Shown here piece by piece: positions 6,447-61,907 of a DNA stretch of 64,000 nt. Position 1 is the first letter of the stretch. The number at the start of each line of letters is the position of its first letter. Under the pieces are notes generated by a model, which worked only from the letters and a program-made list of their open reading frames with translations, was not told the origin of the DNA and ran no database searches. The DNA is from Chondrilla cf. caribensis (lineage: Eukaryota > Porifera > Demospongiae > Chondrillida > Chondrillidae): assembly GCA_964020155.1 (NCBI GenBank), contig OZ026546.1:5267400-5331399 (forward strand), given 5' to 3'. Position numbers and translations under genes: made by a program.

Positions 6447-9400
6447 TCACATATCAGCATATGTCACAGGGTCCACTCTTGCGTGTATCACATTCCTTCC
6501 CGTGCCTTGTTCAGAGAAATCCAGATCAGCATATTGGATCTGTTAGGAGAGAAGGAATAGATTTTCCCATGTTATGGTTTTAAAAAGCATTTCACTTATC
6601 TAAAGACAAGTGATAAACACTACAGGCGATAATCATCTCTGAATAATGACGGAATTTCTACAGACACAACATCATAAAGGGACTATTGGGAAATTGAAGA
6701 CTACCATATGCACACTGGGGACATTCATACAGAATTCTGGCCACCAGACCACCAGTCCTTAGTAATGGTATGTTAAGCATGCAGACAACAGAATACACGT
6801 TTAGTGCGCAATATAGCATATACTTGTATGTGTGCAAGGTAAGTAAATACAAACAACAACGACTTAATGAAGAAACAGATATGGAACTACAGTACTGAGA
6901 AAACCACTCAGAAAACCACACAAACACACCCCATCTGGATTTCCTTGCTGCTGCATAACATTCCCAGTACTGACAACCTGTATACACACAAAAAAGTACA
7001 TGACATACATGATACTGTGCACCTGTACACATAAGCATGTGAGTAAGATAAGTAAACACATAATAATGTTGTGTATTTGAAGGAATAAAACACTAAAATA
7101 ATTCAGAAAACTATGGAAATACAACAAACCCCATCATTTCCTCCAGTTCATTACTAGCAAAATTCTGTACACAAAATGAACATAGGAATGATACCCCTTC
7201 AAGACTTCCACATGCACCTGTACATTACATATGTATGAATGTGTATGTACAAACCATGCAGCTATGTAAGGACACACAATTGTCTACATTGAGTGTGAGT
7301 GAGGTGCTGTGTCTCCCACACATAAACACACTTCTTGCTTGCTTCTCCTTGGCTTCTTCACCTCATCGTCATTGGTAACAGCCTGCTATACATATCAACA
7401 AAAGTAGAGAAATCCAATATTATGTTACAACACAACATAAAAATATATGTACGTACTTACATACGTACATATATGGTAAGGTGCCCTAATTCTGGAATTT
7501 GAACATTACAGTGAGTACGGTGATAGGTAAAGTCTACCTGAAACTCTACATGTTAGTGCTTTGGATGCTTCATGGATTGAGGATCAGTTTGACATCAAAC
7601 CTAATCCAAAAAATGATTTGGAAGAGAAATTCCCAAGGTGTCCAGAATCAGGGCTCCTACCACATATGTACATACTGTACATAATAATACGTACTGTACA
7701 TATAGTACATGGCTTCAACATAAGCAAGCCAACACAATGATACACACAACGCAACGTAGCAGAGTTCTTTTCGTAATGGTACCTTGACACACAGTACAGT
7801 GACACACCTGTTTCTTGGCTACACCCAGATTCTGATACTGCACCTCCTCCTTATGTTGACGTGACCTCTTTTGTTTGTGGTGCTATGATATACATGTAAA
7901 CAAAGGGATATGTACATGTTTGTCCACAAGGTACGTACTTACAAGTGTGTGAGTAAACACAAACAACAACAGCAAACTATTTGTGAAGAGACAAATACAG
8001 AACTACAGCACTCAGATAACTACACAAACTCACCCCATCTGGAGTTCCTTGCTGTTGGACTCTTTCATCAGTAATGACACCCTGTACACACATGTACAAG
8101 GCATATTACATACACAATACAGTATAGAAACACAATAAATATATTGCACATTGTACGTACGTACGTATGTGTGTGAGATGAGTAAAAAAGAACAATATTT
8201 CTTCTTCTAAAGATTTATTGAGCTTAGCATCGAATTGTCTTAGTTTTGAACGTTTCGGTCCCGAAGACCTTCGTCAGCAATAAATAGTTAAGAATATCTA
8301 TTTATTGCTGACGAAGGTCTTCGTTATACATTACGTACAAATGCACACTACAAACCAAACAGCCATCTAGTCTTGAATCCAGATGGTTTCCCATTGTGTG
8401 CATATGCGTTCATGGGACACAGAAACAGGCAATGGATTCAGCACTAGCAGCCATGCTGGGACACACACAATTGACTGCCTACAGTGTGAGGTGCTGTACT
8501 CTTACCCCACCCCCCCCCCTCCAACACACACACAAACACACCTCTTGCTTGCTTGTCTTTGGCTCCTTAATCTCATCTCCATTAGTAACAACCTCCTGTA
8601 CATACAAGTGAATACAGGAGATTTCTAATGATGTGTACAATCTAGTTGTTAGATTACACAAACATACGTAGGTACATAATATATACTGTACATACAGATG
8701 TACGTACGTAGGTGAAGGTAGAAGCTGTTGATTGCAAGCAACCATTATACAGTGGGACCTCTCTATCACAAACCACTGAAATGTGGAAACCTCTATGATA
8801 AGGACACCATTCTGTATCCCAGTGTAGTACTGTAGTGCATTAAGTGATCTCTGAATTGAGGAAACCTCTGTAATAAGGACTAAACGTGAGGTCCCAAAGT
8901 GTCCTTAATGGACAGGTTCCACTGTACTGTAAGGACACTTGCAATACAGCACACACACAACTACTCTCCTGGTGCTACCTAGACATACAGAACAGAACAC
9001 ACCTTCTTCTTGGGTACATTCTGATACGCAGCCTCCTCCCTATGTTCACGTAACCTGTCAGTAGAGAGAATTAGTTGACTGCAACACAAACATCGACTAC
9101 TTCAGGCACACAAATGTGCAGCACTCACTCAGTGGAGTTCATCTCATAAATCTTGTCTAGAGAATTGAAGAAGTGAGACAAATCAAACATGCCCATTACA
9201 GCCACCGAATATTATGTATAATACATGCATGCATAAATTCAATGTCAGAAAAGAAAGCCGTGTGGCAACAAAGTTAACCACAATAGATGGGATCACTGTG
9301 GGTGGGTGCCACTCAAATAGCCAAGGACAACAATAGCTAACGGCTCCCAACGTTAAAAAAGAATATCTGATACCTGATACACTGTATGTACATACGTACG

Positions 9401-12400
9401 TACGTATGTTGTATACATTAGACGGGAGCTATACTGCATGTAAATCTGACCTTTCCTGCAACAGAAGCAGCACCAGAATACTTCACAGTAGCCTGCAAGT
9501 ACACAGGAAATATGAGTGTGAAGTGTGTTCTCACACAATACCCACTGTTGTGCCATTCATTATCAAACAAGGAAACATACAAGTGCACAAGGATCTCACT
9601 TTTATCTTTGAAAAACACCAAATAGGCAATGAGAACACCCAGGGGGTAGAGCAGGGGTATGAGCAGTAACAGGAGCACTAGAGCAGCCAGGGGAGCTAAA
9701 GAGTCAACTTGAGGAGTACTTGAAGGAGGATCTATTACAGACCAGATCAAAGATGAGAAGTACCTCATTGTGCAAATGAGATCAAACATGTTAAAAGATA
9801 CAAGATAAGCAGCTGTTCTACTAGCAATATTCTAATCATCAGCTATGAATAACATTAGGCACCAGTGGCCTACAGGGGATGAGTTAGTGACTGTGATGTT
9901 CCAGGATCAAGGGTAGGTATTTGTAGACACATAGATAATACTACCACCAACAGCGATGAACCTTCCAAATGAACAAACGTACACATGCATCTACACATAC
10001 GTACACTGTATATGAAAACGAAGGACATCAATGAAACTGAAATTGAAATATTTCTCACAAGTACACAATCAAAAGAAATAAACTGTCGGTTAAGAAGGCT
10101 AATTTTCACATCCTCTCAATCTGTCATGTTTACATTGTTGATCTGCTACGCAGCAACTGTTTATTTCAGTATACACAACATAAAGTACGTGCATGGTACA
10201 CCAGTGTGTAATGGGTACTCACTAGGAGTACTAGTACTAGGCATATCAGGAACACATGAATCTGTGAGAATGAAGTGGAATGAACCAGTATAAAACTGAC
10301 GAAGAACAGGTTAGAACACACGAAGTAGAAGACATCATGGTACAAGTCAACAAAGTATACATTTGGACACTTTCTGAAATGAGAGCCATATCATAGGACA
10401 TAGATACATACAAAAATTTTCAAAAAATAGTCAACAATGGGAAACATGCAAAAATAGTCAAAATATTGAAATTCCCAGTCAATATACATACGTACACACA
10501 CAACACAACCTTGTACCAATACTGAATAGGTACTAACCAAACATGCACATTTGATATAACAATCTCACCCATTATTCTAGCTGTAGTTGCACTCTTGCTA
10601 GCTCCGCACACTCCACTATTGAGAGTCACAGTAAACACATACTCAGTACTTGAATTGAGACCAGTGATATTACAAGGGCTGGCTTTACATTCAGTACAAC
10701 CTGGTGATGATGGAGTACAGCTAACTGAAGTGGTGATGTCATTAGGTTCACTTGGTTGGTCCCACTGTAGAGTAATACTATCACATGACTCCACGGCTGC
10801 CCTCAGATTAGTAGGTGCATTTAGGTCTACAGGAAGTACGTATGTATAATAATACATACATGTATACGTAATACAAGTATCACTTATACGTACGTACGTA
10901 GTAAGCCACAAGGTTAACATACGTAGTATACTTCACAAGTCATCAATGAAAATTTGACAAGACATACATAGTACATTGTCATAACTATAGACACAATAGT
11001 GAATATTTTGAGACAAAGTAGTAGCATAGTGAATCAATACATAATATACATATGTACTTATGATTCAAACAATACAGCAACTATGCTAAGATAGGATGTA
11101 TTGATACAAATTAAATTCATTTACAACTTGAGTATATAACTTGAAATAAAAATGTTAATAAAAGTGTCTATATACAACAAATTCACAATGACAGGTAAAA
11201 ATATGCATGCACCTACGTACGTACGTACATATGTATGACACACGTCATCTCACCCATTGTTATAGCTGTAGTTGTACTCGTGTTAGCTCCGCACACTCCA
11301 CTATTGAGAGTCACAGTAAACTCATACTCAGTACTTGGAGCAAGATCAGTGATAGTACATGGACTGGTTGTACATTCAGCACAACCTGGTGATGGTGGAG
11401 TACAGCTAACTGAAGTGGTGATGTCATTAGGTTCACTTGGTTGGGTCCACTGTAGAGTAACTGTATCACAGGACCCTACAGTTGCAGTTACATTTGTTGG
11501 AGGTGGAAGTGGCAGTAGGTCTACATTCGTGATACGTGAGATGCAATATCCGACAGTGAATGCTGAGAATCAGTAGTACGTAGCAAAGTAATCATGCAAT
11601 ACAAAGCATAGGTAAGAACAGAATTTATCCAGTTTGCCCCACTCTGACTGACCACCCTCACGTGAATGTCATATAATTATACTAAATGTATATTATCATG
11701 ACTACCTACGCACATACATACGTACTTAGGACTGACCTTAAGGTCTTCAATGTCTGCAGACTTATATACACAATCATCATTAGTAAAGATTACAGGTGGG
11801 GTGGGTGAGTCAAAACCTAGTCTAGCCAGCATAGTCACATCACTGATGTTAATGTAGACAAATCAAGGTATGGCCTAGATGATGGACCAGCTAGAACTAC
11901 AGGAGGATGGTACAAAATTCAATTCAATCTGTGTAAAAATGTAGCTAAACCATATAGTAGTATAGCAACTTACATGCACGATCAGGCAGGACATATGAGA
12001 TAATATATTATAACCGCTCACCTACTGATATACTAGCCATTCCCCGAACGTTATTATTCTCTGCGTTAATACACTGAATAGTTCCTCCATTGTCTGATCT
12101 ACTGAATCCAGAGATAGTGATCCTAGACTCACCGACCTGAGAAGTATCTCCTGTATCGGGAGACGTGATCCTGGAATTGGTCCTGGCTTCAACTCGTGCC
12201 CTGAAAGGTCCCCGACTAATCCCACTCAATCCACTCGTAGTCCATTCAATCGGTTCACCAGGTGCATCACAATCGAAGGACTGTCTACTACCGCAATCCA
12301 CGGAGACGTTGCCATTTGGTGTCAGTGTACCTACACGAAAGTGAAACAGATTGACATATAGCTAAATAGTGAATAGCCGCATAAGATGCTAAATTGACCT

Positions 12401-12514
12401 CTATAGCGTTAAAGGCTGACTTAATAATAGCTAAACCGGGCGTAAAGGCTCACCTTGTACAAGCTTTAATACTACAATTAGAATAAAGGATAAGTTTGAC
12501 GACGAAACTGTCAT
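6447..12514 (-). CDS. M1: Ig-FN3-FN3 transmembrane receptor with ITIM tail
   Basis: Predicted single-pass surface receptor of about 519 aa. Exons: 12514-12454 signal peptide; 12330-12022 Ig-like domain (Cys...W core, SDNGGTIQC near the end); 11520-11254 and 10826-10569 FN3 domains; 10261-10223 hinge; 9731-9600 TM helix (Leu-rich, LLYPLGVLIA); 9492-9451 Cys-rich juxtamembrane (YCEVFWCCFCCRK); 9156-9129; 9054-9003 (AAYQNV); mini-exons 8595-8542, 8081-8034, 7882-7808 (VQYQNL), 7385-7332, 6976-6929; terminal 6539-6447. Introns are phase 1 up to the tail, then 2, then 0. The terminal exon has ITIM IQYADL and VTYADM (YxxM, the PI3K-type motif). A sixth mini-exon (7164-7130) has a 13-nt deletion and weak donor gtttgt, so including it shifts the frame. 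A possible alternative terminal exon (6757-6725, DWWSGGQNSV) is weakly supported. Inhibitory function is inferred from the motifs only. Confidence 0.75.
8251..8323 (-). ncRNA. Hammerhead-ribozyme-like motif in a 25-bp hairpin
   Basis: On the minus strand CTGACGA (8277-8271) is followed by a stem GGTC...GACC and GAAAC (8256-8252), which is the CUGANGA - stem II - GAAA core of the hammerhead. The preceding sequence is a 25-bp perfect inverted repeat (8262-8286 with 8299-8323, 12-nt loop) that also supplies a GTC. The flank (GAAACGTTCAAAACTAAG) recalls Penelope-like retroelements, which carry such ribozymes. The stem I/III geometry does not fit perfectly, so activity is uncertain. It lies in an M1 tail intron. 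Confidence 0.45.
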
Positions 12515-14821: not shown

Positions 14822-14829
14822 ACACACAC

Positions 14830-14915
<86 letters not shown>

Positions 14916-14928
14916 CACACACACACAC

Positions 14929-15820: not shown

Positions 15821-18800
15821 TCATGACATCTCTGCATATGTCACAGGGTCCACTCTTGTGTGTATCACGTTCCTTCCCGTGCCTTGTTCAGAGAAATCCA
15901 GATCGGCATATTGGGTCTGTTAGGAGAGAAGGAATAGATTTTCCCATGTTATGGTTGTAAAAAGCATTTCACTTATCTATAGACAAGTGATAAACACTAC
16001 AGGCGATAATCATCTCTGAATAATGATGGAATCTCCACAGACACAACATCGTAAATGGACTATTGGGAAATTGAACACTACCATATGCACACTGCATGGA
16101 GACATTCATCCGGGATTCTGGCCACTAGACCACCTGTCCTTAGTAATGGTATGTTAAACATGCAGACAACAGAATACATGCTTAGTGCGCAATATAGCAT
16201 ATACTTGTAAGCGTGCAAGGTAAGTAAATACAAACAACAATGACTTAATAAAGAAACAAATATGGTACTATAGTACAGAGAAAACCACTCAGAAAACCAC
16301 ACAAACACACCCCAACTGGATTTCCTTGCTGCTGCATAACATTCCCAGTACTGACAACCTGTATACACATAAAGAAGTACATGACTGTAGTGTATTGAGT
16401 GATCTCTGAAGGAAACCTCTGTAATAAGGACTAAACGTGAGGTCCTTAATGGACAGGTTCCACTGTACTGTAAGGACACTTGCAATACAGCACACACACA
16501 ACTACTCTCCTGGTGCTATCTGGATATACAGTAGGGGACACACCTTCTTCTTGGGTAGATCCTGATACACGTTCTCCTCCCTATGTTCACGTAGTCTGTC
16601 AGTACAGGGAATTAACTGTCTGTAACAACACAAACATCAACTATACTTCAGACACACATGTGCAGTACTCACTCAATGGAGTTCATCCAATAAATCGTGT
16701 CTGGAGAATTGAAGAAGTGATAATAGTGTAATGCTGATTTGTATACACTGGTTCATATTTTCCTGTTTGTTTTATGGAATAACAAAAGTTTGTTTTCAGG
16801 GGGCATTTTATATAAATTACAATACGAAAAAGTTGGTTCCAAGATTATGCGTCTGTTTTACCGCGGTAACTGTATTTCAGGGGGCCAGATTATTGGGGGC
16901 CCACTGTACCTCATACCTGATACACTGTATGTATGTACGTAGTATACATTTGACAGGAGTTATACTGCATGTAAATCTGACCTTTCCTGCAACAGAAGCA
17001 GCACCAGAATACTTCACAGTAGCCTGCAAGTACACAGGAATTAGGAGTGTGAAGTGTGTTCCCACACAATACTCACTGTTGTGCCATTCGTTACAAACAA
17101 GGAAACATATGTACAAGTGCACAAGGATCTCACTTTTATCTTTGAAAAACACCAAATAGGCAACGAGAACACCCAGGGGGTAGAGCAGGGGTATGAGCAG
17201 TAACAGGAGAACTAGAGCAGCCAGGGATGCTGAAGAGTCAAGTGGAGAAATACTTGGAGAAGTATCTACTACAAATAGACTAAAGTTAAGAAGTACGACA
17301 TTGTGCAAATGAGATCAAACATGATGAATACAAGACAAGTACCTCGTCTACTATAATATAGCAATGGTCTAATCATTAGCTATGAATACCATTAGACGTC
17401 AGGGGCCTAAAGGGGGTGAATTAGAGACTGTGGCTTTTCGTGCGACGCTGAAGTGTCAACTTGAGGAGTACTTGAAGGAGGATCTATTACAGACCAGATC
17501 AAAGATGAGAAGAGCCACATTGTGCGAATGAGATCAAACATGTTAAAAGATACAAGACAAGCAGCTGTTGTACTAGCAATATTCAGTTATGAATACCATT
17601 AAACACCAGGGGCCTACAGGGGGTGAATTAGTGACTGTGATGTTCCAGGATCAAAGGTAGGCATTTGTAGACACACACAGATTACGTACTAGATCCAACA
17701 GCCATGAACTGTCAAACTGAACATACACATGCATGTGTATGTATGTATCTGAGAATGAAGGACATCAATGAAACTGAAATTGAAATATTTCTCAGAAAGA
17801 ACGCAGTCAAAAGAAATGAACAGTCTGTTAAAAAGGCTAATTTGTCACATCATCTCACTCTGTCATGTTAACACTGTTGATCTGATACACTGCAACTGCA
17901 CGCCTATTTCAGTATACACAATGTAAAGTACGTGCCTGGTACACCAGTGTGTAATGTACACTTACCAGAAGTATTAGTACTAGGCCTACATGAATCTGTG
18001 AGAAAAAAAAGCAGAATGAATCAGTATAAAACTGACGAAGATCAGATGAGAACACATCAAGCAGTTGGAACTATATTATTGGTAGGTGCAAGTAGGTCTA
18101 CAGAAATACAGTAATACACATCATGGTGAGCTGCTAATGACAAGTCTACTAATCAATGTACGTAAAACCATTAACATAATACAGTAATAATATGTATATA
18201 CAATGTCATGTGTCTGTCTACATAGGTGTAGGAACCTTTGGGGCAGTGGGGGCAGTTTAGAGGGGGAAAAGTTCTCACTAGCTAAGTCAAATTTGTACAT
18301 AAAGTCATTATCATCCAAACTTTCAATATACGTCTACTAGGTACAATTGGCTAAACTCATACTTCAAGGTGAAGAGAGACAGATGTTTTATCTTTGAACA
18401 TATTCGGGCCCAACACATGAGTTTAATACTCGGCATATTAATTGACATATTGCTATGTTCAAAATAGTGGGCTGCCGTATTATTTTCATTGTTTTACAAA
18501 CTTGATCTCACCTCTTGTTCCAATCCCTGTTGTATTCATGGAAGTTCCGCACATTACACTATTGAGAGTCACAGTAAACAAATACTCAGTACTTGGATTG
18601 AGACCAGTGATAGTACATGGACTGGTTGTACATTCAGCACAACCTGGTGATGGTGGAGTACAGCTAACTGAAGTGGTGATGTCATTAGGTCTACTTGGTT
18701 GGTCCCACTGTAGAGTAAGGGTATCACATGACTTTGCTCTTGCCACTACAATAGCAGGTGCACGTAGTCCTATAGATAGTGGAAGCCATGACAACATACT

Positions 18801-20267
18801 TAGCACGTAATCAATGGAAATTAGGAAACATACAGTACATGTTTACCACACAAATTTCTTTGTGAAAAGTACTATCCGGCAGTGAATGCTGAGAATCATT
18901 AGTAGCATAGTGAATCATGCAATACAAAGTACAGGTATAAAATAGAACTTATCCAGTCTATCCTACTCACCCTGACCCTCCCCCTCATGTCGTGTTCAAA
19001 TGATAAAACACTGAAATGGAGGGACAGGATCCAAACAAGGCCAGATTAGCAGATAAAGGATTGACATGCACTGATAATGATTATTATTATTGGCAACATA
19101 TTATGTACTACTGGATGTATGACATTCAGCTATAAACTGTAATTACATCATTCACATCAAGACGTCAATTCCATAACAGCACATCAATCACAGTAAGTGG
19201 TTGCACATAAACAGCGGCCAAGTTAATTATGAATTAAATTATGATAGTCAAGATGAAAGTTATGAAATATTCCCACGAATATCTACATACTTCGGACTGA
19301 CCTCAAAAGGTCTTCAATGTCAGCGGACTTACGTACATAATGATTTTTATTATTCCAGTAAAGTACACCAAATCTGAATTCCTCAAATTGACAAACTTTC
19401 AGATAAGTGCTAAAGTGATTGGATATCAAAACAGACAACACATCTAAAAGGAGTACAGGCGGGGTGAGTGAGTTGAAACTTAGTCTAGCCTAGTGTACTC
19501 ACATCACATATGTTAATGTAGACAAATCAAGGTACGTATGGCATAGATGCTGGACCAGATAGAACTAGGAGGATGTGGCCATACTACGTACCTATACAAA
19601 TACCTGCCGTCATCTTTACAAATCCCTGCACATGTGCAAAATTTAATTTAGTCTGTTAATACACGTAGTTAGACCATATACTAGCACAACAACTGACCTA
19701 CACACATGATCAAGCAGTATAAGAGGTAGTCCTTAACTGACACAAATCTCAATAGGAGTCAATAACCACTCACCTACTGATATACTAGCCATTCCCAGAA
19801 CATTACTATTATTCGCGTTAATACACTGAATAATTCCTCCATTGTCTGATATACTGAATCCAGAGATAGTGATCCTAGACACGCTATACTGAACATTGCC
19901 TCCTGTATCGTTAGACGTGATCCTGGGATTGCCTATGGCTTCAACTCGTGCCCTGAAAGGTCCCCGACTAATCCCACTCAATCCACTCGTAGTCCATTCA
20001 ATTGGTTTATCAGGTATTGCACAATCAAAGGTCTGTGCACTACCACAATCCACTGAGATGTTGCCATTTGGTGTGAGCGTACCTACACGAAAGTGAAACA
20101 GATTGGCACATAATTTATAAATTGAATAGCCGTATAATATACTAAATTGATCTCAATAGCGTAAAAGGTTTATATAATAACTACTAAACCGGGCGTAGAG
20201 GCTCACCTTGCACAACTTTTAACGCTACGATTAGAATAAAGGATACGTTCGAAGACGAAACTGCCAT
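15821..20267 (-). CDS. M2: Ig-FN3 transmembrane receptor with short ITIM-type tail
   Basis: About 351 aa, the most compact family member. Exons: 20267-20207 signal (MAVSSSNVSFILIVALKVVQ); 20082-19774 Ig; 18769-18512 FN3; 17995-17966 hinge (30 nt, good donor gtaagt); 17265-17134 TM; 17023-16982 Cys-rich (YCEVFWCCFCCRK); 16700-16673 (TIYWMNSIE); 16595-16544 (NVYQDL); one mini-exon 16358-16311; terminal 15916-15821 (TQYADL, VTYAEMS). The first terminal-exon residue is Thr, so TQYADL misses the strict ITIM -2 residue. A second FN3 is reduced to a stub at about 18098 (DLLAPTN), and a deletion joins sequences that in M1 flank the other mini-exons. A partial extra copy of the TM exon start lies near 17460. 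Intron 16719-16910 holds sequence absent from M1. Confidence 0.72.
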
Positions 20268-21502: not shown

Positions 21503-22053
21503 TCACACAGCTGCATATGTTATAGCACCTTCCATCGAGTGTATCACATTTCTTCCTCTACCATATCCAGAGAAGTCAAAAGCAGCATATTGGATCTGTT
21601 AGTAAGAGGAGAGATATCTGTTGTCTCAGCTTTAAATGATTGACAACGCACTATGAATTTATTAAGACCATGAAGTGTTACCCATTACAGGATTATTCAG
21701 CACAAATAATACCTGTAAACATTAATAATGGAGCTAGTTGGAGAATGAAGCCTTCCATATGCAGACTAGGCACTTTCAAATTCATCATGGGGTCTGGTCT
21801 GCTAGACCATCAGAATTAGTAGTGATTATACTCAGTCCACACAAATATACATACCAAGTATATTATAGTACATTTCTCATGCACAAAACCCACCAGTATA
21901 ACATTGTAAATGTGTAACATAAGCAGACAAAAAGCCAACGGCAATGTGCTGTATAAATCAGATGAGCACAGAACTATTCAGAAAACTGCACGAACACACC
22001 CCATCCTGATTTCCTTGCTGCGGTATGTATGCATTTTCATCACTGATGACATT
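21503..22053 (-). CDS. Orphan M-type tail: mini-exon plus type II terminal exon
   Basis: Mini-exon 22053-22000 encodes NVISDENAYIPQQGNQDG (18 codons, donor gtgtgttc). Terminal exon 21595-21503 encodes 30 residues starting IQYAAFD and ending ITYAAV, then TGA. Both are open and phase 0, but no ectodomain or TM exon lies to the right on this strand: P1 begins at 22929 in the opposite direction. It is either a relic of a deleted gene or is spliced from a distant donor, which the intervening + strand gene makes unlikely. Confidence 0.45.
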
Positions 22054-30185: not shown

Positions 30186-30800
30186 TCACAGAGCTGCATA
30201 TGTTACAACATCTACTGTTGAGTGTACCACGTTTCTTTCTCTCCCATGTCCTGAGAAGTCAAGAGCAACATACTGGATCTGTTAGAGAAGGGTAGAGTTT
30301 GTTGTGTCAGTTTCAGCTGATCATAAAACACTATTAATGTATAATATAGACCATGACGTGTTACACATGACAGGATTATACATCACCAAATCATATGTAC
30401 CAAACATTACACAGACATACCTATAAGGGGACTTATTGGAAACTGAAGACTACCATAATACTAGGTCCTTTGAGGGGTCCAGTCTGCTCAATAAGGTACT
30501 TAGTCCACATACGTATATACTTATATTATACCACTTACAGTACTGTAGTACATATCTCATGTACAAAATCTGCAAGCATAATACCGTAAATGTGTAACAT
30601 ATGCAAACACAAAAAATAATACAATGTGCTGTATACAGGGGACAAGTACAGTGTCATTATCAATATGTATATATATATATATATATATAATATATATATA
30701 TATGTTATAATATTATATATATTATGCAACACTTCGTAAACAAACCCCATCCTGATTTCTTTAATTTTTGATGCCCTACATTTTCATCAGTAATGACATT
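30186..30800 (-). CDS. Distal type II tail exons of M3
   Basis: Terminal exon 30278-30186 is open: IQYVALDFSGHG to VTYAAL then TGA, two ITIM-consensus tyrosines. The mini-exon at 30800-30746 (starting NVITDENVGHQ) is 55 nt instead of 54, so its use would shift the frame, and its donor is gtttgt. The terminal exon alone stays compatible with phase-0 splicing from M3 mini-exons. A (TA)n tract lies at about 30667-30713 between them. Confidence 0.5.
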
Positions 30801-36400: not shown

Positions 36401-39400
36401 AGTCAAAGTACGTATTGTCACAATGATGTCACCATTGTGACTTGTACACGTACATGTACATTATGTACAAATGCGAACCAAGCAACCATCTAGTCTTGAA
36501 TCCAGATGGCTTCCCATTGTGTGCATATGCGTTCATGGGACACATACGTTAACAAGGAATGGGAAATTGTCCTGATTGAACATTAGCAGCCATGTAGGGA
36601 CACACACAATTGACTACCTACAGGATGAGGTGCTCCCCCCAAACACACACAAACACACCTCTTGGTTGGTTCTCTTCAGCTCCTTAATCTCATCCCCATT
36701 AGTAACGACCTCCTGTACATACAGTGAATATAGGAGATTTCTAATGATGTGTACAATCTAGTTGTTAGTTTACAAAATTACAAACATATGTACAAACATG
36801 CACATAATATACGTAATAGCTAAAGTACCTCTCAAGAGTGTGGTATGTTGTGTCAATCAGTTGCTATACTTACTATACAGTACAGGACACACCTTCTTCT
36901 TGGGTGCATTCTGATACGCAGCCTCCTCTCTAGGTTGACGTAGCCTGTCAGTAGAGAGAATTAGCTATCTGAAACAACTCAAACCTCACTACTTCAGACA
37001 CACACATGTGCAGTACTCACTCAGTGGAGTTCATCTCATAAGACTTGCCTGAAGAATTGAAGAAGTGAGACAATTTGTCCATTATAGCCACCGAAAGAGA
37101 GTATACATGTATACTACATACATGCATAAATTCAATGTCGGAAAAGAAAGTCGTGTGGCAACAAAGTTAACCACAATAGATGGGATCACTGTGGGTGGGT
37201 GCCACTCAAATAGCCAAGGACAACAATAGCTAACGGCTCCCCATGTTAAATAAGAACACCTGATACCTGATACACTGTATGTACATACATTGTATACATT
37301 TGATCGGAGTTATACTGCATGTAAATCTGACCTTTCCTCCATAAGAAGCAGCACCAGAATACTTCACAGTAGCCTGCAAGTAGGTATGGAGGAAATATGA
37401 GTGTGAAGTGTGTTCCCACACAATACTCACTGTTGTGCCATTCATTACAAAACAAGGAAACATACAAGCGCACAAAGCTCTCACTTTTATCTTTGAAAAA
37501 CACCAAATTGGCAATGAGAACACCCAGAGGGTAGAGCAGGGGTATGAGCAGTATCAGGAGTACTAGAGCAGCCAGGGACGCTTGAGGAGTACTTGAAGGA
37601 GTATCTATTACAGATCAGACCAAAAATGAGAAGAACCACATTGTGCGAATGAGATTGAACAAGTTTAATACAAGACAAGCAACTCGTCTGCTAGCAATAT
37701 TCTAATCATCAGCTATGAATACTACTAGGCACCAGGAGCCTTCAGGGAGTAATTAGTGACTGTGATGTTCCAGGATCAAGGGTAGGCATTTGTAGACACA
37801 CAGGTTACTAGGTCCAACAGCAATGAACCGTCAAACTGAACATACACATGCATGCGTACGTATGTAATAGCTAAAGTACATCTCAAGATGTACCATATAG
37901 CGGGAAAGTTTCATGGAATAAAAGTTTCGCGAATTTTGCAAAGAAACTGGTATTCGCCACATCCCATGACATAATTGTCTGACAACCATTTCACTCGCGA
38001 AATTGAACGATTTGCAAAAGTTTTGTCCCGCGAAACTTTCCATCCATACAATACTTCAGTTATTATGTGGTATGTTGTGTCAATCAGTTTGCAAATTTTG
38101 ACTTTTGGTTGAGCAATGATTAGTAGACGTGTGAATAGGAAATAACATTATTATCCATAATGCAACATGGAATGAAGTGTTCATACATCAGGGAAGTGTG
38201 CACACATTGCAAATGTGTGCACTGCTTTTCCTTTGAAGTTGCCCACGCAACATACCACATATGAAAATGAAGGACATCAATGAAACTGAAATTGAAATAT
38301 TTCTCAGAAAGTATGCAATGAAAGGAAATGAACAGTCTGTTAAGAAGGCTAATTTTCATATCATCTCACTCTGTCATGTTTACACTGTTGATCTGATACA
38401 CAGCAACTACATGCCTATTTCAGTATACACAATGTAAAGTACGTGTACGGTACACCAGTGTGCAATGTACACTTATCAGAAGTATTAGTACTAGGCCTAT
38501 CAGTAACACATGAATCTGTGAGAAAAAAGGAGAATGAATCAGTATAAAACTGACGAAGATCAGATGAGAACACATCAAGCAGGAGACATCATGGTACAAG
38601 TCAACAAAGTACTGTATACATTTGTACACTTCCTGAAATGAGAGCCATATCACAGGATATAGATGCATACAATAGTTTTCTCAATGGAGCATTATTCGTA
38701 GTCAACAATGTGAGACATGGAAAAATAGTCAAAATTTTGAAACTCCCGGTCAACATACAATGTACACACACACCACAACCTTGTACCAATACTGAATAGG
38801 CATTAACCAAACATGCACTTTTGACACTTGATCTCACCCTTTGTTCTAGCTGTAGTTGTACTCATGCTAGCTTCACACCCTCCACTGTTGAGAGTCACAG
38901 TAAACTCATACTCAGTACTTGGATTGAGACCAGTGATATTACATGGACTGGTTGTACATTCAGCACAACCTGGTGATGGTGGAGTACAGCTAACTGAAGT
39001 GGTGATGTTGTTAGGTACACTTGGTTGGGTCCACTGTAGGATAACAGCATTAAATGACTTTGCTATTGCCACTACATTAGCAGGTGCACGTAGTCCTGTG
39101 GATAGTGGAAGCCATGACAACGCACTTAGCAAGTAATTAATGCAAATTTGGAAATATACAGTACATGTTTATCACACAAACTTAGCAGACAACATATCTA
39201 TAAAGAATATAGGTGAGGTGAGTGAGTTAAAACCTAGTCTAGCCTAGCGTATTCACATCACATATGTTAATGTAGACAAATCAAGGTAAGGCCTGGATGA
39301 TGGACCAGCTAGAAGGATGGGGCCAGACTCATATACCTTCACCTATACAAATCCCTGTACATGTACAAAATATGATTTAGTCTGTTAATACATGTAGTTA

Positions 39401-39976
39401 AACCATATACTAGTATAACAACTTATACAATGATCAATCATGCAGGACATGAGGTAGCTAGTCCTTAACTAACACAAATCTCACATAACCACTCACCTAC
39501 TGATATACTAGCAATTCCCCGAACATTACTATTATTCGCGTTAATACACTGAATAATTCCTCCATTGTCTGATCTACTGAATCCAGAGATAGTGATAACA
39601 GACACGCTAAACTGAACACCATCTCCTGTATCGGGAGACGTGATCCTGGGATTGGTCATGGCTTCATTTCGTGCCCTGAAAGGTCCCTGACTAATCCCCT
39701 TCAATCCACTCGTAGTCCATTCAATTGGTTTACCATGTGCATTACAAGTAAACCTCTGTGTACTGCCACAATCCACTGAGACGTTGCCATTTGGTTTCAG
39801 TGTACCTGCGCGGTAAAAAATGGCAGATCTGCAGATAGCCGTATAATATATTAAATTGATCTCTCTAGCTTAAAAGGCTTATTTAATTACAACTAAGCCA
39901 GACGTAAAGGCTTACCTTGTACAAAATTCAACGCTAAGATTAGAATAAAGGATATGTAGGAAGACGAGACTGCCAT
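33402..39976 (-). CDS. M3: Ig-FN3 transmembrane receptor with long mini-exon ITIM tail
   Basis: About 498 aa. Exons: 39976-39916 signal; 39805-39497 Ig; 39095-38838 FN3 (KSFNAV, where relatives have Cys); 38515-38477 hinge; 37604-37485 TM; 37373-37332 juxtamembrane (YCEVFWCCFLWRK, two Cys lost); 37048-37021 (SYEMNSTE); 36944-36893 (AAYQNA); mini-exons 36712-36659, 36350-36306, 36131-36084, 35931-35857 (VQYQNL), 35348-35295, 34874-34800 (VQYQNL), 34350-34297, 34137-34090, 33926-33879; terminal 33488-33402 (IQYVDL, VTYAEM). The hinge donor is AT instead of GT; skipping that 39-nt exon keeps frame (485 aa). The tail contains an internal tandem duplication (35348-34800 copies 36712-35857) with one truncated exon at 34988-34966. 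Three ITIM-consensus sites make this the most motif-rich tail. Confidence 0.72.
35440..35815. other. Unidentified insert in M3 tail intron
   Basis: Sequence between the two duplicated mini-exon blocks with higher GC (cgacgcctcgatcaattgcgc...gcaagctcgccgggc) and no match elsewhere in the window. It may be a transposon 5' end; I cannot classify it. Confidence 0.35.
37891..38047. mobile_element. MITE, TACCATATAGC family
   Basis: Hairpin-like element: gggaaagtttc...aaagtttcgcgaa near the left end pairs with ttcgcgaaat and gcgaaactttcc at the right. Related short elements are at 54456-54557 and 59420-59627. Confidence 0.55.
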
Positions 39977-51396: not shown

Positions 51397-51970
51397 TCAC
51401 AGAGCTGCGTATGTTACAGCATCTACTGTCGAGTGCACCACGTTTCTTTCTCTCCCATGTCCTGAGAAGTCAAGAGCAGCATATTGGATCTGTTAGAGAA
51501 GAAGGGAAGGATTTGCTATGTCGGTTTCAGCTGGTCATGAAACACTAATAATGTATAATAAAGACTGTGAAGCGTTACATCAGACATTTCACAAACTTTT
51601 AAAGGGGACTAATTGAATACTGAAGACTACCATATTCACACTTGTCCTTTGAAGGGTCCCATCTGCTTGATAAGGTACTTAGTCCTCAAATAATATTATA
51701 TACTTACCACGTACGGTAGTACATAACTTACATACAAAATCTACAAGCATATATACTGTAAATTTGTAACATATTATGCAAACACAAAACAAATACAATG
51801 TGTTGTATACAGGGGGTGAGTACAGAACTTTATACAATATCATATAATACATTGTCAAAACTTTACAAACAAACCCCATCCTGATTTCTTTGATGCTCTA
51901 TAGCTACATTTTCATTCGTAATGACATCCTGTACACACATGTACAAACGGATGCATTATAAGCATACATC

Positions 51971-52012
<42 letters not shown>

Positions 52013-53155
52013 AGATAGTTAAATACAAACACACCCCAGTTTCATCTTGTTATTCAACAGTTTTGAAGGTAACAACACACTTTACATACACACGGAGATA
52101 CAATAGTTTATTTTTACATACTAAAGATGTAATATGCAAGCATGTATAATATTTGTAAACTCCAACCAACTTATATGTAGGAACACATCCAGATGATACA
52201 CAAAAATTATTGATTTATGAAGAGTGTGAGGTGCTTTGTCCCCCATACAAACACCCCTCTTCTCTCTCTATCTCATCCCCAACAGTAATAAGCTGCTATA
52301 CATCTGAATGAATGCAGGTTAAACTTCCAACTAATGTGAACTCTCCATAAACTTACAAGCATACAAGTTGTGCAAACCATGACCCTTATGAAGTCAAACA
52401 CATGCATGTTTACAAACGACCACCCTTGTGGTGCCTTACTTTTACATATTATATGGTATAGGAACACACCTTTCCCTTGTTTACATTCTGATACTCCTCC
52501 TCCTCCCTAGGATGAGGGGACTTCATTAGCCTGTTAGTTGAGAAGGTTGATGGTCACTTAAACGAGAACAAAAACCATGTACGAGGTACATACATACTCT
52601 GTAGAGTGGTGTCCGGTAGTCTTGCCTGGAGGATTGAGGAAGAAAGACGACAGAAACACAAACATAATATAGTGCATGTGTAGACACATAAGTGCAGTGT
52701 CAAAGACACATGCAAAGATGTACTGTGAGAAGGCTCATAGATATAATGTACATCTTACACAATATTATTACAATATACTGGCTCCAAAAGTCATACATCT
52801 AAATCTGACCTTTCCTGCAACATAAGCAGCAACAGAATACTTCACAGTAGCCTGCAAGTACACAGGAAACATTGAGTGTAAAGTGTATTCTCACAGTAAC
52901 TATATCCACCAACCCAACGCTTATAACATACAGTAATAGTTCTGCACCAATATACTTTAAAAAGATAAAGACATACAGCTGCATGCATCTAACTTTTGTC
53001 TTCAAAGCAGCAATATTTGGCAATGAGAACCCCCAGGGGGTAGAGCAGGGGTATGAGCAGTACCAGGAGTACTAGAGCAGCAAGGTGAAGTGATTCCATC
53101 TGTTCCATTTGTAAAGAGTCAGTCGAAGAGGGACAATAATAAATTAGACAAGTAT
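51397..53155 (-). CDS. M4b: complete second TM and type II ITIM tail cassette
   Basis: An anchor-and-tail cassette without its own ectodomain. Exons: 53155-52994 TM (MESLHLAALVLLVLLIPLLY core, phase 1 in); 52851-52810 Cys-rich (YCEVFCCCLCCRK); 52625-52598 (KTTGHHSTE); 52530-52470 (EEEEYQNVNKGK); mini-exon 51928-51875 (DVITNENVAIEHQRNQDG); terminal 51489-51397 (IQYAAL, VTYAAL, TGA). These sum to 146 codons with consistent phases. Two further mini-exons near 52.25 and 52.07 kb are broken by frame loss or a stop. Because the TM exon accepts phase 1, the M4 ectodomain could splice to it instead of its own TM exon at 59083. Alternatively it is a gene that lost its 5' half. Confidence 0.55.
51974..52005. 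repeat. (GT)n microsatellite
   Basis: Pure GT tract in the M4b tail. Confidence 0.9.
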
Positions 53156-55612: not shown

Positions 55613-56640
55613 ACAATAATATTATAGATCGAATCTTAGATAGCCCGGACTCATTCCCAGATGTAATTTTGAAATTGGGTCTCTGTTTCAGTGAGAAAGG
55701 GTCTGGAGAGACTGGATATCAAATACTTGTTATCTACTCAATTTCAACCATGCCGATTAATAACATCAACGAATAGTCCAATATGCAAGCAACTCTGATA
55801 GCTTTGTAGGAATGTTGAAACTGCAATTCTCTTTCAATCTTTCACCTTCGATCATGGGTGCTAAACCCTTTCTCACCAGGACAAAGTCACAATTTCAAAA
55901 GCAAAAGTACGAGTGGGTCTGGGCCACAGTTAATACACACAGTATTAGATATCAGACTGAAAGTGAGGAAGCCCTCCAAGGTCCACACTGCAAATGATCA
56001 TACAAAACAAGCAAATAGCTACAATAATAAACATGAAAATAAACTGAACATGATGACCAAAACAGTAAACAGTGGGGAAGACCTTCAAGAGTCACTCCAC
56101 AGAGGTCACTCACACATTAGGTTCACCCACAACATACCTATACACTAGTATGGGTGCATCTATACAAACCAGGAAGACATAGCAAAACTCTTACCCACAA
56201 CACGGCCTGTACACTAGTATGGGTACATCTATATAAACCAGGAAAAACATAGCAAAACTCTTACCCAGCACTGAAGTGCAGTACTCAACAATGAACACAT
56301 GAATTGCCTCTCAATACACATACTCAATGTTAAATGTAATTCTTGTAATACATGGGACCGGAAGGGTAAGTACTGCAACTTGGGAGGCACAGGACTATGT
56401 ATCCCAGATGGTGGTGGTGGCATGAAAGAGATGACAGGGATATGTATATCCAACTCTGCACATAATATTATGTATTCTAAGGGATCCCTTAGATTTGCTG
56501 CTGAAAGGTCAGAAAGTGGGTGATGTGGATAAAATTAACTACATCACTTTTTGGACGGAAACACAGGGAATGGATCCTTTACATGGGATACCAAGGGAAA
56601 AGGCCAGGTAACCCCAATAGAGGTGTACTGAGGTGTTCCC
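55613..56640. other. M4 to M4b intergenic or intronic sequence
   Basis: Aligns with 32.05-33.0 kb of M3. The FHFQS exon homologue near 55.95 kb carries a stop. No other gene seen. Confidence 0.5.
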
Positions 56641-56644
56641 ATAC

Positions 56645-56840
56645 AGGTAACAGAAGCGTCCCCTATAGGGATGTTTTGAGGTGTCCCCCATAGAGGTAAC
56701 AGAAGTGTCCCCTATAGGGATGTTTTGAGGTGTCCCCCATAGAGGTAACAGAAGTGTCCCCTATAGGGATGTTTTGAGGTGTCCCCCATAGAGGTAACAG
56801 AAGTGTCCCCTATAGGGATGTTTTGAGGTGTCCCCCAAAG
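56645..56840. repeat. 49-bp tandem repeat, four copies
   Basis: Unit aggtaacagaagtgtcccct...tgttttgaggtgtccccc, copies starting at 56645, 56694, 56743 and 56792, nearly identical. Just downstream of the M4 terminal exon. Confidence 0.92.
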
Positions 56841-56979
56841 AGTTGACCAAAGGTGTCCCCATAGAGGTGTACAATGAGCACAGCATGTTCTCCCAAACCA
56901 CAAACTTACAGCATGTAACTGACACACTAGTTCGTATATATACAATGTCCACATACGTAAACGGGAGTGAAAGACCTCA

Positions 56980-59900
56980 TCACATCTCTGCATATGTCAC
57001 AGAGTCCTCTATTACGTGCATCGCGTTCTTTCCCGTTCCATGTTCGGTGAAATCCAGATCGGCGTATTGGAGCTGATAGGAGAGAAGGATCTGATTGTAC
57101 CAAATTATGGAGTCAAAACATGTCACCAATTTAGACACAAGTGTTAGACACTACAGGGGATAATCATCACAGAATAATGATGGGGATTTCCACAGACATA
57201 GCATTACATGGGGCTAATTGGAAACTAAAAAGGGCATGCACGTTCATTAAGGTGTCCGGCCTGATAGACTACCAGTCTTTAGTAATTCTCTGTTAAGCAT
57301 GTAGACAACAGAATACATGTTCAGTCGACAACATAGCATAAACTTGTGTGTGCAAGGTAGGTAAACACAAACAACAACGGCTGCATGTGAAGAGACAAAT
57401 ACTGAACTACAGTACTGAGAAAACCACACAAACACACCCCATCTAGATTTCCTTGCTCCTGGATAACATTTCCAGTACTGACAACCTGTATACATGTAAA
57501 GATGTATGTTACATGCATTATACTGCATGTACAAACCATGTAGTACACATGTGCATGTGTGTGAGATGCGTAAACACACAGCAATGAGTATATGATTTGA
57601 TAAAAACACTAAAATATTCAGAAAACTATGCATATTAACACATCCCATCCTTTCCTCCGTGCTGCCTAATAGGTTCATTAGTAGCAATATTCTGTATATA
57701 CAAAATGAACATTATAGGAATGATACCCTTTCTTGACTTCCACGTGTACATGTACACTACATACCAATGTGTACCTACAATACATGCAGCTATGTAGGGA
57801 CACATACAATTGACTACATAGAGTGTGAGTGAGGCATATATTTCATGAGTGATGATATCCTGTACACACAAGTACAATGGGATAAGTTGATTACACTGAC
57901 AATATCCACTTAGTCTGGTAGGTGAATGTGTGTACAAAGGTAAACAGAAAACAATGGAAACAATGGAGTGCATAGGTGAGGGGATAGACACTCACTACCT
58001 GGAAGACTAATGTACATGAACACACCTCATCATCATCTCCTAGCTGCACTGCTGTTTCATAAGTAACAACATGCTGCAAATATGGAAAGGGACAGAATAG
58101 ACAATTCGGTGCTTGTGAGTATGTACTCTACGTTTGTGACCATGTGTTAGCTATGCAACCATATAAAGGCACATGCAACTGCATGATGACACACTGTGCG
58201 AAGTGTTAACCACACACAAACACACATCTTGCTTATTTCCTATTTGATCCTTGTTTTCCTCCCAATCAGTAACAAACTGGATATGCTGTTCATATGAAAG
58301 AAAACAGGGGTTGAAATGGGTATATATTCTTTGCGTGTTTGCATGCACAAACGTGTATGTCAGTTCGCGAATATCAAGGTATGTGTACATAAACAACCCA
58401 TCAAGTTAGGTGGACTCAAGCAAACCAGAAGAACATCAGTAATGTGATCTGAAATGACCACCTCAAGGTGTTTTTGACATAAAGGCAACACACCTGTCCC
58501 TTGTTGACATTCTGATACTCCTCCTCCTCCTCCCTAGGGTGAGGGGACTTCATTAGCCTGTCAGTGGAGAGGATTGATGGTCACCACCAATATACACATG
58601 GGCAGTGTAAAAAACATACGTACTCTGTAGAGTTGCATCTGGGAGACTTATCTACAGAACAGAGAAAGAGTCACAATAATATAATTATTACAAGATATAG
58701 TACTTACTTACAGTTAAATATATATATTCAAAGTAGAAAGTCATAAACAACACAATTCATAAGTTGCTTCAATTGTACATTTTGTCTATTCTGACCTTTC
58801 CTGCAACAGCCACAACACCAGAATACTTCACAGTAGCCTACAAGTACACAGAAAGATAGATGGGTTCTATACGATGATGCAACGCACACATGACACTCAC
58901 TTATATGTATTTACCATGCATCACTGTGCATAGGAAAACAGAAGACATACAACTGTACAAGTATCTCACTTTTATCTCTAAAGCAGCCATATTTGGCAAT
59001 GAGAACTCCAAGGGGGTAGAGCAAGGGAACGAGCAGTAGTACTAGGACTGCTAGAGCAGCCAGGGGAGCTGATGAAGTGCCACCTGGAGAAGTATAAGAC
59101 AAGATATAAGATGATGATTATGACACATGTACATATTAGTGTATATACTATTACGATCAAACATGCTACATACAGGTGAATGTCCTGCCAACAATACTGT
59201 AATACTACACATTGCATTGAGCATGGGTATCCCATAATGCACAGGGAGGGAGAAAGAGGAGATTACTGACTATATCATTCCAGGATCAGAGGTAGATGTT
59301 GTGGACACCCACATGTACTAGGTCAAGCAGCACACAGTAACAAAACTAGAAGCCAAGAACATGCACAGAAAGGAAGGAATCCAGTACAGTTGCACATTTT
59401 TCTTGTAAGATTCAAACTACCGTATAGCTGGAAATATTGGCAGCGAAATTATTTTGGCGAATTGGCTATTTTTGAATTTTACCTCCAAATTACGACTCAA
59501 TCCTATATTCATAGGTTATGAATATAATTATAACCTACTGGAAGGCAACCGCAAATAAATATTGCCAAAGTTCAAATTAGCCCGAAATCACCAAATATTC
59601 TTCTCGCCAATATTTCCAGTTATACGGCACTAAAAACAAACACCTAATCATTTACAGTAGAAGGCAATTGATCTGTGTTATATTATAAGTATGATGAGGA
59701 CTTCAACATGATACTGAAGTCGTCCAGCATACTTTAAAATATGTTAAATCACAATAACATTATAACCTCCCACTCAATGCATTATAGTTAGTTGTAGCAC
59801 AATAGTTCAGTGGACACCAGAAATACATCTACATGTTGGACACAAGAGATCTCACCCTTTGTTTTTACTAATGCTGTACTCATGCTAGCTTCACACCCTC

Positions 59901-61907
59901 CACTGTTGAGAGCCACGGTAAACTCATACTCAGTACTTGGATTGAGACCAGTGATAGTACATGGACTGGTTGTACATTCAGCACAACCTGGTGATGGTGG
60001 AGTACAGCTAACTGAAGCAGTGATCTCATCAGGTTCACTTGGTTGGGTCCACTGTAGAGTAATACTATCAAATGACTCCAAAGTTGCACTCAGATTAGTA
60101 GGTTCATGTAGGTCTGAAGAAAGTATTACAATATATTTATTGACATAAAGTAAGCCACATGCAGGAATAACACATATTTCACAAGTCAACAAGTCAACAA
60201 TTTAGCAACGCACAGTACTCATTACTGCACCATAATATGTATGACAGTATGTATGCCCACTCATTGTGGTCTGAGAATTGAGTAAACGCAACATCAAATG
60301 CTATCAGACAAAGTAGCAGTATAGTGAATCAATAGACAAAATTAATATAATTGAAGCTATAATATTATAATAGCAACTCATAACAAGTAAACAGAAAACA
60401 ATAGTTGATATAATTTATTGGAATAAATTAATATATTTCATTTATGAACTGTACTTGAATACATAATTGAAATTGTCTATTATACCACTAATTTAAAATG
60501 CCAGGCATAACAACCATAACATGCACCTATCACACATATGATCTCACTCTTTGTTCTAGCTGTAGTTTTACTCGTGTTACTGCATTCTCCACTATTGAGA
60601 GTCACAGTAAACTCATACTCAGTACTTGGATTGAGACCAGTGATAGTACATGGACTGGTTGTACATTCAGCACAACCTGGTGATGGTGGAGTACAGCTAA
60701 CTGAAGCAGTGATGTCATCGGGTTCACTTGGTTGGGTCCATCGAAGAGTAACACTGCATGACTGTGTAGTTGCAGTTACATTCGTTGGAGGTGGAAGTGG
60801 CAGTGGATCTACAAGTAATACATCATATGTATTACAGAACAAGTAATTTGACTTCTAAAACTTGTGGGCCTCCTACCCCCACACTCGAAGTACTCAGCCA
60901 TCTTTTCCACGCTTATTAGAATTTTGCTGGAAATATAACATCCAACGAAGCTGTTGTGCTCAAAGTCTAGCTCAATTCTAATTCTCGGTGTTTCAAAATG
61001 GGGCATTTTTCGCATGATATAAGATTTAATTACAAATTTATGGTTGCGGTTACATGTAGTAACAAATATGTTAAAATAATATTATACATATGTTATGTTA
61101 CACTTGATGTAATATATAATATTATATTAAATTATAAGGTTATTACATCAAGCATAACATACAAGTCCATGCAGGCAGTCCATAAAATAGGTGTTAACAC
61201 ACTTAACAATTAATCAAATTGAATGTTAACTTAACAACAAAGCATACATCCAATATATTATATTTATCCGCTGCACTCTGGCCAACCCCTGTCCCTCTTT
61301 TAGATGCTATTGCATAACACATGACAACACACTCACCTATTGATATAGTAGCCATTCCCTTAGAATTATTTTTATTCATGTGAACACACTGAATAATTCC
61401 CCCATTGTCTGATATACTGAATCCAGAGATAGTAATAACAGACACACGAGTCTGAGTATCAGCTCCTGTATCATTAGACATGATCCTTGGATTGTTTAGG
61501 GATGCATTTCGTGCAAGGAAAGGTCCTGGTATACTTATCCCACTCAGCCCGGCGATATTCCATCCAAGTGGTATATTGTTGTTTACTTGACAAATAAAGG
61601 TTCGTTTATTTAGACACTCAACAGAGACCATACCCTTTGGTTCTAGCGCGCCTATAAGATAAAAGAGTTTGGAATGGTAGATCAATACTGATTGTTGACG
61701 AATAGTAGCATAAAAAAGTAATACGTAGACTACATAATACGTACGTTGCAACTAGACCAAACAATTGGTTTATATGAATAATAAATGGTGAAAATAGAAT
61801 GTTTACGAGGTTTACTTATAGAAATGAATCAAACGTGGAGGCTCACCTTGTACAATAGTTAATACAATAGTCAGAATAAAGGATTTGTTCGAAGACGAGA
61901 CTGCCAT
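56980..61907 (-). CDS. M4: Ig-FN3-FN3 transmembrane receptor with ITIM tail
   Basis: About 463 aa, the most diverged M gene. Exons: 61907-61847 signal; 61651-61337 Ig (315 nt; IPLGWNIAGLSGIS replaces the usual IEWTTSG); 60808-60548 and 60113-59856 FN3 (the second has ESFDS for ESCDS); 59083-58970 TM; 58837-58796 Cys-rich (YCEVFWCCGCCRK); 58651-58624; 58557-58494 (EEEEEYQNVNKGQ); mini-exons 58285-58226, 58073-58026, 57485-57438; terminal 57072-56980 (LQYADL, a strict ITIM, and VTYAEM). No hinge exon was found. A further mini-exon 57691-57644 is open but its donor reads AT; with it the protein is 479 aa. A truncated mini-exon lies at 57859-57836. Confidence 0.72.
59420..59627. mobile_element. 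MITE with 22-bp inverted repeats
   Basis: CCGTATAGCTGGAAATATTG at the left and its inverted copy at the right with one mismatch in 22 bp; 208 bp, no ORF. Lies in the M4 intron between FN3 and TM exons. Confidence 0.75.
60840..61165. mobile_element. Unclassified repeat in M4 intron
   Basis: The start (caagtaattt...acttgtgggcctcc) and next 240 bp resemble 4331-4600. The end holds a 21-bp inverted repeat (61094-61114 with 61141-61161, tatgtta..cttgatgtaata, two mismatches), which may be a separate element. Confidence 0.5.

Follow-up and report, generated by a model that had tools for sequence, protein, structure and literature searches.

Genes in the window

Here, we describe a cluster of genes for putative type I receptors in the sponge Chondrilla cf. 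caribensis, in which one family of ectodomains is joined to two unrelated tails. The window, i.e., the whole stretch of DNA analysed, comprises 64,000 nt (C1:5267400-5331399, C1 being contig OZ026546.1) in a 137 Mb genome. Gene models were built from exon likeness and intron phase. Four genes of type M on the minus strand and two of type P on the plus strand were found, and all six genes with an ectodomain (6/6) have an uninterrupted reading frame from start to stop codon once their GT/AG introns are removed. An earlier reading of the letters alone, referred to as the sequence-only reading, had placed the cluster at 6447..61907. Both borders hold, since the M1 terminal exon ends at base 6447 and the M4 start codon begins at base 61907. 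The same reading had assigned P and M to opposite strands. This is correct within the window and for nine pairs of the surrounding array, but immediately past the right end of the window both types share the minus strand, which means that strand itself is not the rule.

The first exon of all six genes encodes a signal peptide and belongs to one family common to P and M; it is followed by one immunoglobulin-like (Ig) exon, one to three FN3 exons, a transmembrane (TM) segment and a tail. The ectodomain exons of P1, P2 and M1 to M4 have AG/GT borders and are in phase 1 throughout, the latter as stated by the sequence-only reading. P genes end in a single exon that encodes TM and tail. In M genes, the 3' part consists of a Cys-rich exon, a 28-base exon shifting phase 1 to 2, small tail exons that are mostly of phase 0-0, and a terminal exon with two tyrosine motifs. 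A "CQYWEC.." frame was also considered for the M tail exons and rejected, as the phase chain from the 28-base exon leads to the frame that reads VQYQNL and IQYADL.

M1 (6447..12514, minus strand, 502 codons including the stop) comprises the signal peptide at 12454-12514, Ig at 12022-12330, FN3 at 11254-11520 and 10569-10826, and TM at 9600-9731. Its tail is spread over 9451-9492, 9129-9156, 9003-9054, 8542-8595, 8034-8081, 7808-7867 (VQYQNL), 7332-7385, 6930-6977 and 6447-6539 (IQYADL, VTYADM). M2 (15821..20267, minus, 342 codons including the stop) has the signal peptide at 20207-20267, Ig at 19774-20082, a single FN3 exon at 18512-18769 and TM at 17134-17265, and its tail exons lie at 16982-17023, 16673-16700, 16544-16595, 16311-16358 and 15821-15916. 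M3 (33402..39976, minus, 461 codons including the stop) consists of signal peptide 39916-39976, Ig 39497-39805, FN3 38838-39095, TM 37485-37604, the Cys-rich exon 37332-37373 and eleven more tail exons, among them two with VQYQNL (35857-35916 and 34800-34859) and the terminal one at 33402-33488 (IQYVDL, VTYAEM). M4 (56980..61907, minus, 464 codons including the stop) combines signal peptide 61847-61907, Ig 61337-61651, FN3 60548-60808 and 59856-60113, and TM 58970-59083 with tail exons at 58796-58837, 58624-58651, 58494-58557, 58226-58285, 58026-58073 and 57438-57485 and a terminal exon at 56980-57072 (LQYADL, VTYAEM). Three exon-like stretches that have no fitting donor were omitted from the models, one in M1 (7132-7164) and two in M4 (between 57644 and 57860). 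Tandem arrays of units of about 25/49 bases occur near the terminal exons of M3 and M4, at 33035-33281 and 56629-56864.

P1 (22929..28611, plus strand, 478 codons including the stop) is composed of signal peptide 22929-22998, Ig 23127-23435, FN3 25319-25573 and 26863-27120, an FN3 exon of a second type at 27544-27834, and the TM and tail exon 28361-28611 with YEQV, YEDI and YGPV. P2 (43503..50224, plus, 481 codons including the stop) is built alike from 43503-43575 (signal peptide), 43706-44014 (Ig), 45466-45729, 48402-48656 and 49072-49362 (FN3), and 49974-50224 (TM and tail), with YEQV, YEDI and YGPM.

A common pool of ectodomains

The Ig exons of P and M are as similar between the two gene types as within each of them. 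Mean amino-acid identity is 77% for P-P, 75% for M-M and 76% for P-M comparisons (22 core exons), and the synonymous distances (dS) are 0.104, 0.143 and 0.123, respectively (21 exons). For the ten FN3 exons of the window, the corresponding identities are 76%, 72% and 75%. The sequence-only reading had called these exons near-identical. The shared pool is confirmed, but at 75-77% and 72-76% identity that wording is too strong. The middle of the FN3 exon is much more alike, with a dS of 0.067 compared to 0.215 for the whole exon, and is homogenised across P and M. Pooled Ig exons and a homogenised FN3 middle would be expected under exchange by gene conversion.

A tree of the ectodomain exons, suggested by the sequence-only reading as a check, does not sort by tail, although the formal test discussed below leaves one point standing. 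This Ig tree requires 6 changes of the P/M label, compared to a mean of 8.0 in shuffled labels, and 72 out of 500 shuffles are as low. Four of the 27 Ig exons (M5346, M5360, M5376, Mw4) were excluded from the tree; the identity values and the first set of non-synonymous to synonymous ratios (dN/dS) exclude also P5121 (22 left), and the later rate and dS sets exclude also P5137 (21 left).

The relation extends beyond the window. The P1 Ig exon resembles the 12 full-length minus-strand, i.e., M-side, Ig exons of 5.06-5.31 Mb at 69-83%, and at 50-59% the 13 plus-strand Ig exons, full-length and free of stops, of a block at 5.378-5.53 Mb which contains P only; the P tails of this block are up to 87% like the P1 tail.

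With respect to domain assignment, Pfam fn3 scores above its cut-off in 3/3 FN3 exons scanned. The Ig exon shows the conserved Cys, the Trp and a D.GG..QC layout, and 12 out of 26 exons match Pfam Ig_3 at E <=0.01 (best 1.2e-4), the first member scoring below the curated cut-off. No PDB sequence matched the Ig profile (alignment A1) at E <=0.05, and a protein search with P1 over 5.8 billion sequences returned 4741 candidates, none at E <=0.001.

Two unrelated tails

The TM and tail regions of M1 and P1 show no similarity (BLASTP E = 34), which bears out the claim that these exons are unrelated. The counts below refer to 16 of the 21 matches of the M terminal exon and to the 26 P tails of equal length among 30 retrieved from 76 matches.

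Both tyrosines are kept in 16/16 M terminal exons. The strict consensus of the immunoreceptor tyrosine-based inhibitory motif (ITIM), [SIVL]xYxx[ILV], is present at the first site in 14/16 and at the second in 12/16; at least one site is strict in 15/16 and both are in 11/16. In the window, two strict sites occur in M1, three in M3 and one, LQYADL, in the terminal exon of M4. The prediction of ITIM sites in the M tails thus stands for M1, M3 and M4 and fails for M2. Shuffled tails matched the number of strict sites with p = 0.010 for M1, 0.0016 for M3 and 0.018 for locus L059. The two VQYQNL exons of M3 indicate that the ITIM number varies by exon duplication.

The P tail is short, with 44 residues from RHCY to the stop, and in P1 it carries three Yxx[IV] sites. 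The tyrosines of the motifs YD/EQV, YEDI and YGPV are kept in 25/26, 21/26 and 26/26 copies, respectively. YEDI resembles YEEI, the preference of Src-type SH2 domains. The sequence-only reading had regarded the arrangement YEDI-x7-YGPV as close to an immunoreceptor tyrosine-based activation motif (ITAM). It does fit if V is allowed at the last position, as do 1.4% of shuffles, but the strict consensus is missed, due to V in P1 and M in P2. P as a strict ITAM receptor was therefore rejected. At one position of the P TM, we found Asn in 28 of 30 copies by eye, Asp in one (L021) and Tyr in one (L024). L021 (C8:910481-913723) is a P-type tail on another contig, and its Asp is the sole acidic residue at this position among the 30 copies. 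A receptor kinase was considered as well and rejected, as the gene models of both types stop after a short tail and contain no cytoplasmic kinase domain.

Organisation of the array

In the whole genome, the P exon for TM and tail has 76 matches at E <=1, 65 of them between 4.71 and 5.61 Mb of C1, which amount to approximately 60 copies once pieces are joined. The M exons are more restricted. The terminal exon has 21 matches, on C1 only, the weakest of which include two at 4.89 and 4.99 Mb, and 19 out of 20 matches of the M TM exon fall into 5.06-5.375 Mb of C1, with one weak match on C8. Because P tails are widespread and M TM exons are confined to one block, we infer that M is the derived partner, which acquired a P-type ectodomain. 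The Ig exon has 116 matches at E <=0.01.

Between 5.05 and 5.33 Mb of C1, a P tail follows each of the 11 full-length Ig exons on the plus strand, and an M TM follows 12 of the 13 on the minus strand. Partial Ig pieces, of which there are one on the plus and two on the minus strand, are excluded from these counts; with them, the figures are 12/12 and 14/15. Three short P fragments (5140336, 5239022, 5239093) were excluded as well. In case of the two-stop Ig piece 5173071, its M is reached only beyond another gene. Ten head-to-head neighbours of minus-strand and plus-strand Ig exons were found in this region, spaced 1.8-13.3 kb, and for nine of the ten both tails could be located, M on the minus and P on the plus strand. 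The tightest neighbours (L051), a pair for which the M TM was not found, have start codons 1150 bases apart. Blocks with P only adjoin the array, e.g., at 5.378-5.53 Mb. Pair partners were also considered as matched ectodomains; this was rejected by a shuffle of the pairings (P = 0.92), where M5223 was taken as the partner of P5231 in place of the nearer partial Ig 5228401.

Rates of change

The Ig exon changes fastest in its middle. Columns 41-78 have a dN/dS of 1.98 (codon bootstrap 1.22-3.28), with 2.09 for P alone and 1.93 for M alone, while the exon outside these columns has 0.93; the Ig values are to be read as indicative, as they stem from pairwise counts of related sequences and from columns chosen post hoc. 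Lower values were obtained for the motifs of the M terminal exon (0.28 and 0.60), for the cytoplasmic part of P (0.65 in 26 copies, 0.77 in 11 array copies) and for FN3 (0.77). A fast Ig middle next to slower tails is expected of receptors that are pressed to change what they see, and would fit a role in recognition.

Candidate signalling partners in the genome

Two loci on C12 contain SH2 and phosphatase matches in order. At L069, two pieces find PTPN11 as best match (E 2.7e-36 and 4.4e-34) and suggest an SHP-2-like protein, and L070 was identified as a second SHP-2-like locus by reading. L071 is Syk-like in its two SH2 exons, which occur in order and match SYK best (E 2.9e-29 and 9.7e-19; SH2 exons only). 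Judged by these similarities, candidate partners of the ITIM type (SHP-2-like) exist in the genome, and partners of the ITAM type probably do so too.

Aside from these loci, a dense run of 18 SH2 matches at C14:1.55-2.14 Mb represents an expanded SH2 protein family. Long arrays of tyrosine-phosphatase exons, perhaps of receptor phosphatases, lie at C6:4.31-4.85 Mb and C18:3.49-3.87 Mb.

Interpretation and rival explanations

On balance, we consider it the probable explanation that the array holds paired-receptor-like genes which evolved independently in the sponge, with M as the inhibitory and P as the probably activating partner. The usual unit would be a divergently transcribed M/P pair of type I receptors within a large array. 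M would present a diversifying Ig and FN3 ectodomain on a multi-exon, ITIM-type tail, which upon phosphorylation may recruit an SHP-2-like phosphatase with tandem SH2 domains and thereby damp signalling. P would present the same ectodomain pool on a tail that is short and well conserved and contains three Yxx[IV] motifs. This tail may dock kinases or adaptors, with Src-type SH2 domains for YEDI or of the Syk type, and most likely drives or tunes the opposing signal. The inhibitory role of M is proposed with fair confidence, an activating or kinase-docking role of P with less. From the sequences, we also infer the signs of the two signals, a ligand, tail phosphorylation, expression, and a role in recognising other cells or microbes.

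Several observations weigh against this interpretation. Forcing the P Ig exons into one clade costs 27 log units, with p = 0.060 in the approximately unbiased (AU) test, and a single P Ig clade is thus not formally rejected at 0.05. For the ten head-to-head pairs, similarity between partners does not exceed that in shuffled pairings, so that one pair need not share one ligand. With respect to the domains, the Pfam Ig match stays under the curated cut-off, M2 is devoid of a strict ITIM, a strict ITAM was not found in the P1 tail, and the TM of P1 and P2 has no charged residue. The rates add to this: the whole Ig exon has a dN/dS of 1.29 with an interval of 0.91-1.81 that includes 1, columns 41-78 were selected after the profile had been seen, and the P tail is only mildly below 1. 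In the array, the full-length minus-strand Ig exon at 5185336 is an exception, since it is followed by a P tail, with no M TM located before it. Of the nine pairs, six are unblemished; the others contain one partial M-side Ig, one P-side Ig with a stop, and one stray Ig piece before the P tail. The genes are therefore called paired-receptor-like and not members of the paired receptors, since a strict ITAM and a charged TM residue were looked for on the activating arm and not found, and partners are not specially alike. The analogy drawn by the sequence-only reading survives with regard to one ectodomain pool, two unrelated tyrosine tails and encoded SHP-2-like and Syk-like proteins; the classical features of the activating arm are missing from it.

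An unlikely alternative is that the two gene types encode receptors for adhesion or uptake, whose Yxx[hydrophobic] motifs are sorting signals for the clathrin adaptor AP-2, and whose tails set different trafficking and not opposite signals. Yxx[ILV] also fits sorting signals in general, and all three sites of the P1 tail as well as several M sites comply with it. The ITIM context at positions -2 and +3, strict at one site or both in nearly all M terminal exons, and the duplication in M3 of an exon with a whole VQYQNL site speak rather for ITIM function, but are compatible with sorting, too. It is also conceivable, yet in our view quite improbable, that the two tails send signals of one sign or work in different cell types, such that the shared ectodomain results only from gene conversion in the array, with no antagonism of P and M. 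Pair partners being no more alike than random, FN3 middles homogenised across both types and P-only blocks next to the array would all be explained in this way. Against it, the M TM exon is limited, save for the weak match on C8, to the block in which P ectodomains are matched, and the alternation of M on the minus and P on the plus strand recurs nine times with both tails located.

Finally, the array might consist mostly of decaying duplicates, with the pairing as a functionless relic of segmental duplication. Fragments are indeed frequent (P0, M5 and orphan M terminal exons, all described below, and partial Ig pieces), P5137 has one stop and a lost donor, and long tracts are duplicated at approximately 78-93% identity. 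We nevertheless regard this explanation as very hard to uphold, as every window gene with an ectodomain is open, 26/27 Ig exons are stop-free with both splice sites, and the motif codons are constrained. In sum, the logic of paired receptors accounts for the data better than sorting motifs or a defunct array would. A stronger version holds that a true paired-receptor complex evolved in the sponge independently of vertebrates, with an ITIM arm, a non-ITAM activating arm, one diversifying ectodomain pool and repeated head-to-head pairs in a core of approximately 0.3 Mb within a 0.9 Mb array, for discrimination of self and non-self or of symbiont and stranger. This version is possible, but we put it forward tentatively and would not yet bet on it.

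Relation to known systems

In its layout, the array resembles the paired stop and go receptors found on immune cells of vertebrates. Vertebrate paired receptors such as KIR, LILR and SIRP have in common with M/P a shared ectodomain on two different tails, one of them with ITIMs. M/P differ in their ectodomain of Ig and FN3, in P1 and P2 lacking a charged TM residue and a strict ITAM, and in genes that mostly alternate head to head with partners not matched one to one. To our knowledge, no conserved tail like that of P exists in the Alr family of Hydractinia.

For CD300A/CD300C, ectodomain exchange by gene conversion is described while the tails diverge (PMC12447643). The FcoR genes of Botryllus form a large family whose tails carry ITIM, hemITAM and core Yxx[ILV] motifs, and partners are encoded side by side (PMC12065747). 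M/P resemble them in family size, tyrosine-motif tails and adjoining partners. The Botryllus FcoR ectodomain, as described there, consists of IgV, sushi and two C2 Ig domains, in contrast to one Ig-like and one to three FN3 exons in M/P, and the Botryllus partners belong to the related fester and FcoR families (PMC12065747) and not to one ectodomain pool on two unrelated tails. The Hydractinia Alr family likewise comprises clustered members of the immunoglobulin superfamily, and these carry motifs for tyrosine signalling (as cited in PMC12065747 and PMC11999971); its ectodomains are V-set/I-set (PMC11999971), unlike those of M/P. Sponge Ig receptors raised after grafting (PMC2248247) are similar in being Ig receptors of a sponge, but M/P have no kinase: the P tail ends after its 44 residues and M after small tail exons.

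According to a review of 2025, how invertebrate allorecognition works is a mystery, and the candidate proteins of sponges (for which the aggregation factor is cited), cnidarians and ascidians show no conservation across these groups (PMC12065747). Our searches of open papers revealed none that reports a comparable array, judged by title and opening of the abstract, with subscription journals and preprints outside the scope. New are the repeated divergent pairs, the pool of Ig and FN3 ectodomains, the conserved non-ITAM tail of P and the sponge host; related motifs have already been reported in Botryllus and Hydractinia.

Further features of the window and the genome

Besides the six genes, the window contains several fragments. 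P0 (1003..1113, plus; tail match C1:5268403-5268510) is a P-type tail without ectodomain directly after a decayed leader-like stretch and looks like a deletion remnant. M5 (51397..53126, minus), found by exon scan and in the list of open reading frames, has M-type TM, Cys-rich and terminal exons, and an adjoining ectodomain exon was not recognised. Orphan M terminal exons lie on the minus strand at 2687..2779 (IQYAAL, VTYAAL), 21503..21595 (IQYAAF, ITYAAV) and 30186..30278 (IQYVAL, VTYAAL). Orphan FN3-like stretches between genes, at 41750-42094 (minus, without the usual donor) and 62199-62420 (plus, a piece only), are likely remnants of duplication.

Very long (CA)n tracts occur at 3888-4303 and 14822-15256, the first of which spans 416 bases with 100% matches. 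Two open stretches at 63130-63888 (plus) resemble what we take to be the endonuclease part of a retroelement of the long interspersed element (LINE) type. Elsewhere in the genome, 30 homeodomain exon matches were counted, compared to 32 in Amphimedon, 37 in Trichoplax, 127 in Nematostella and 76 in Mnemiopsis (PMC2959044), a number in keeping with a sponge or placozoan. GH6, a mark of tunicates, gave no match in a search whose control gave none either. Silicatein was not seen in a motif scan of 12 Peptidase_C1 loci out of 44 matches, five of which were read, and of 3 short stretches. The papain-like loci L074, L077 and L079 (C3:1.95-1.99 Mb) and L078 (C6:242124) have their GSCW motif replaced, with what appears to be Ser at the position of the catalytic Cys in all four.

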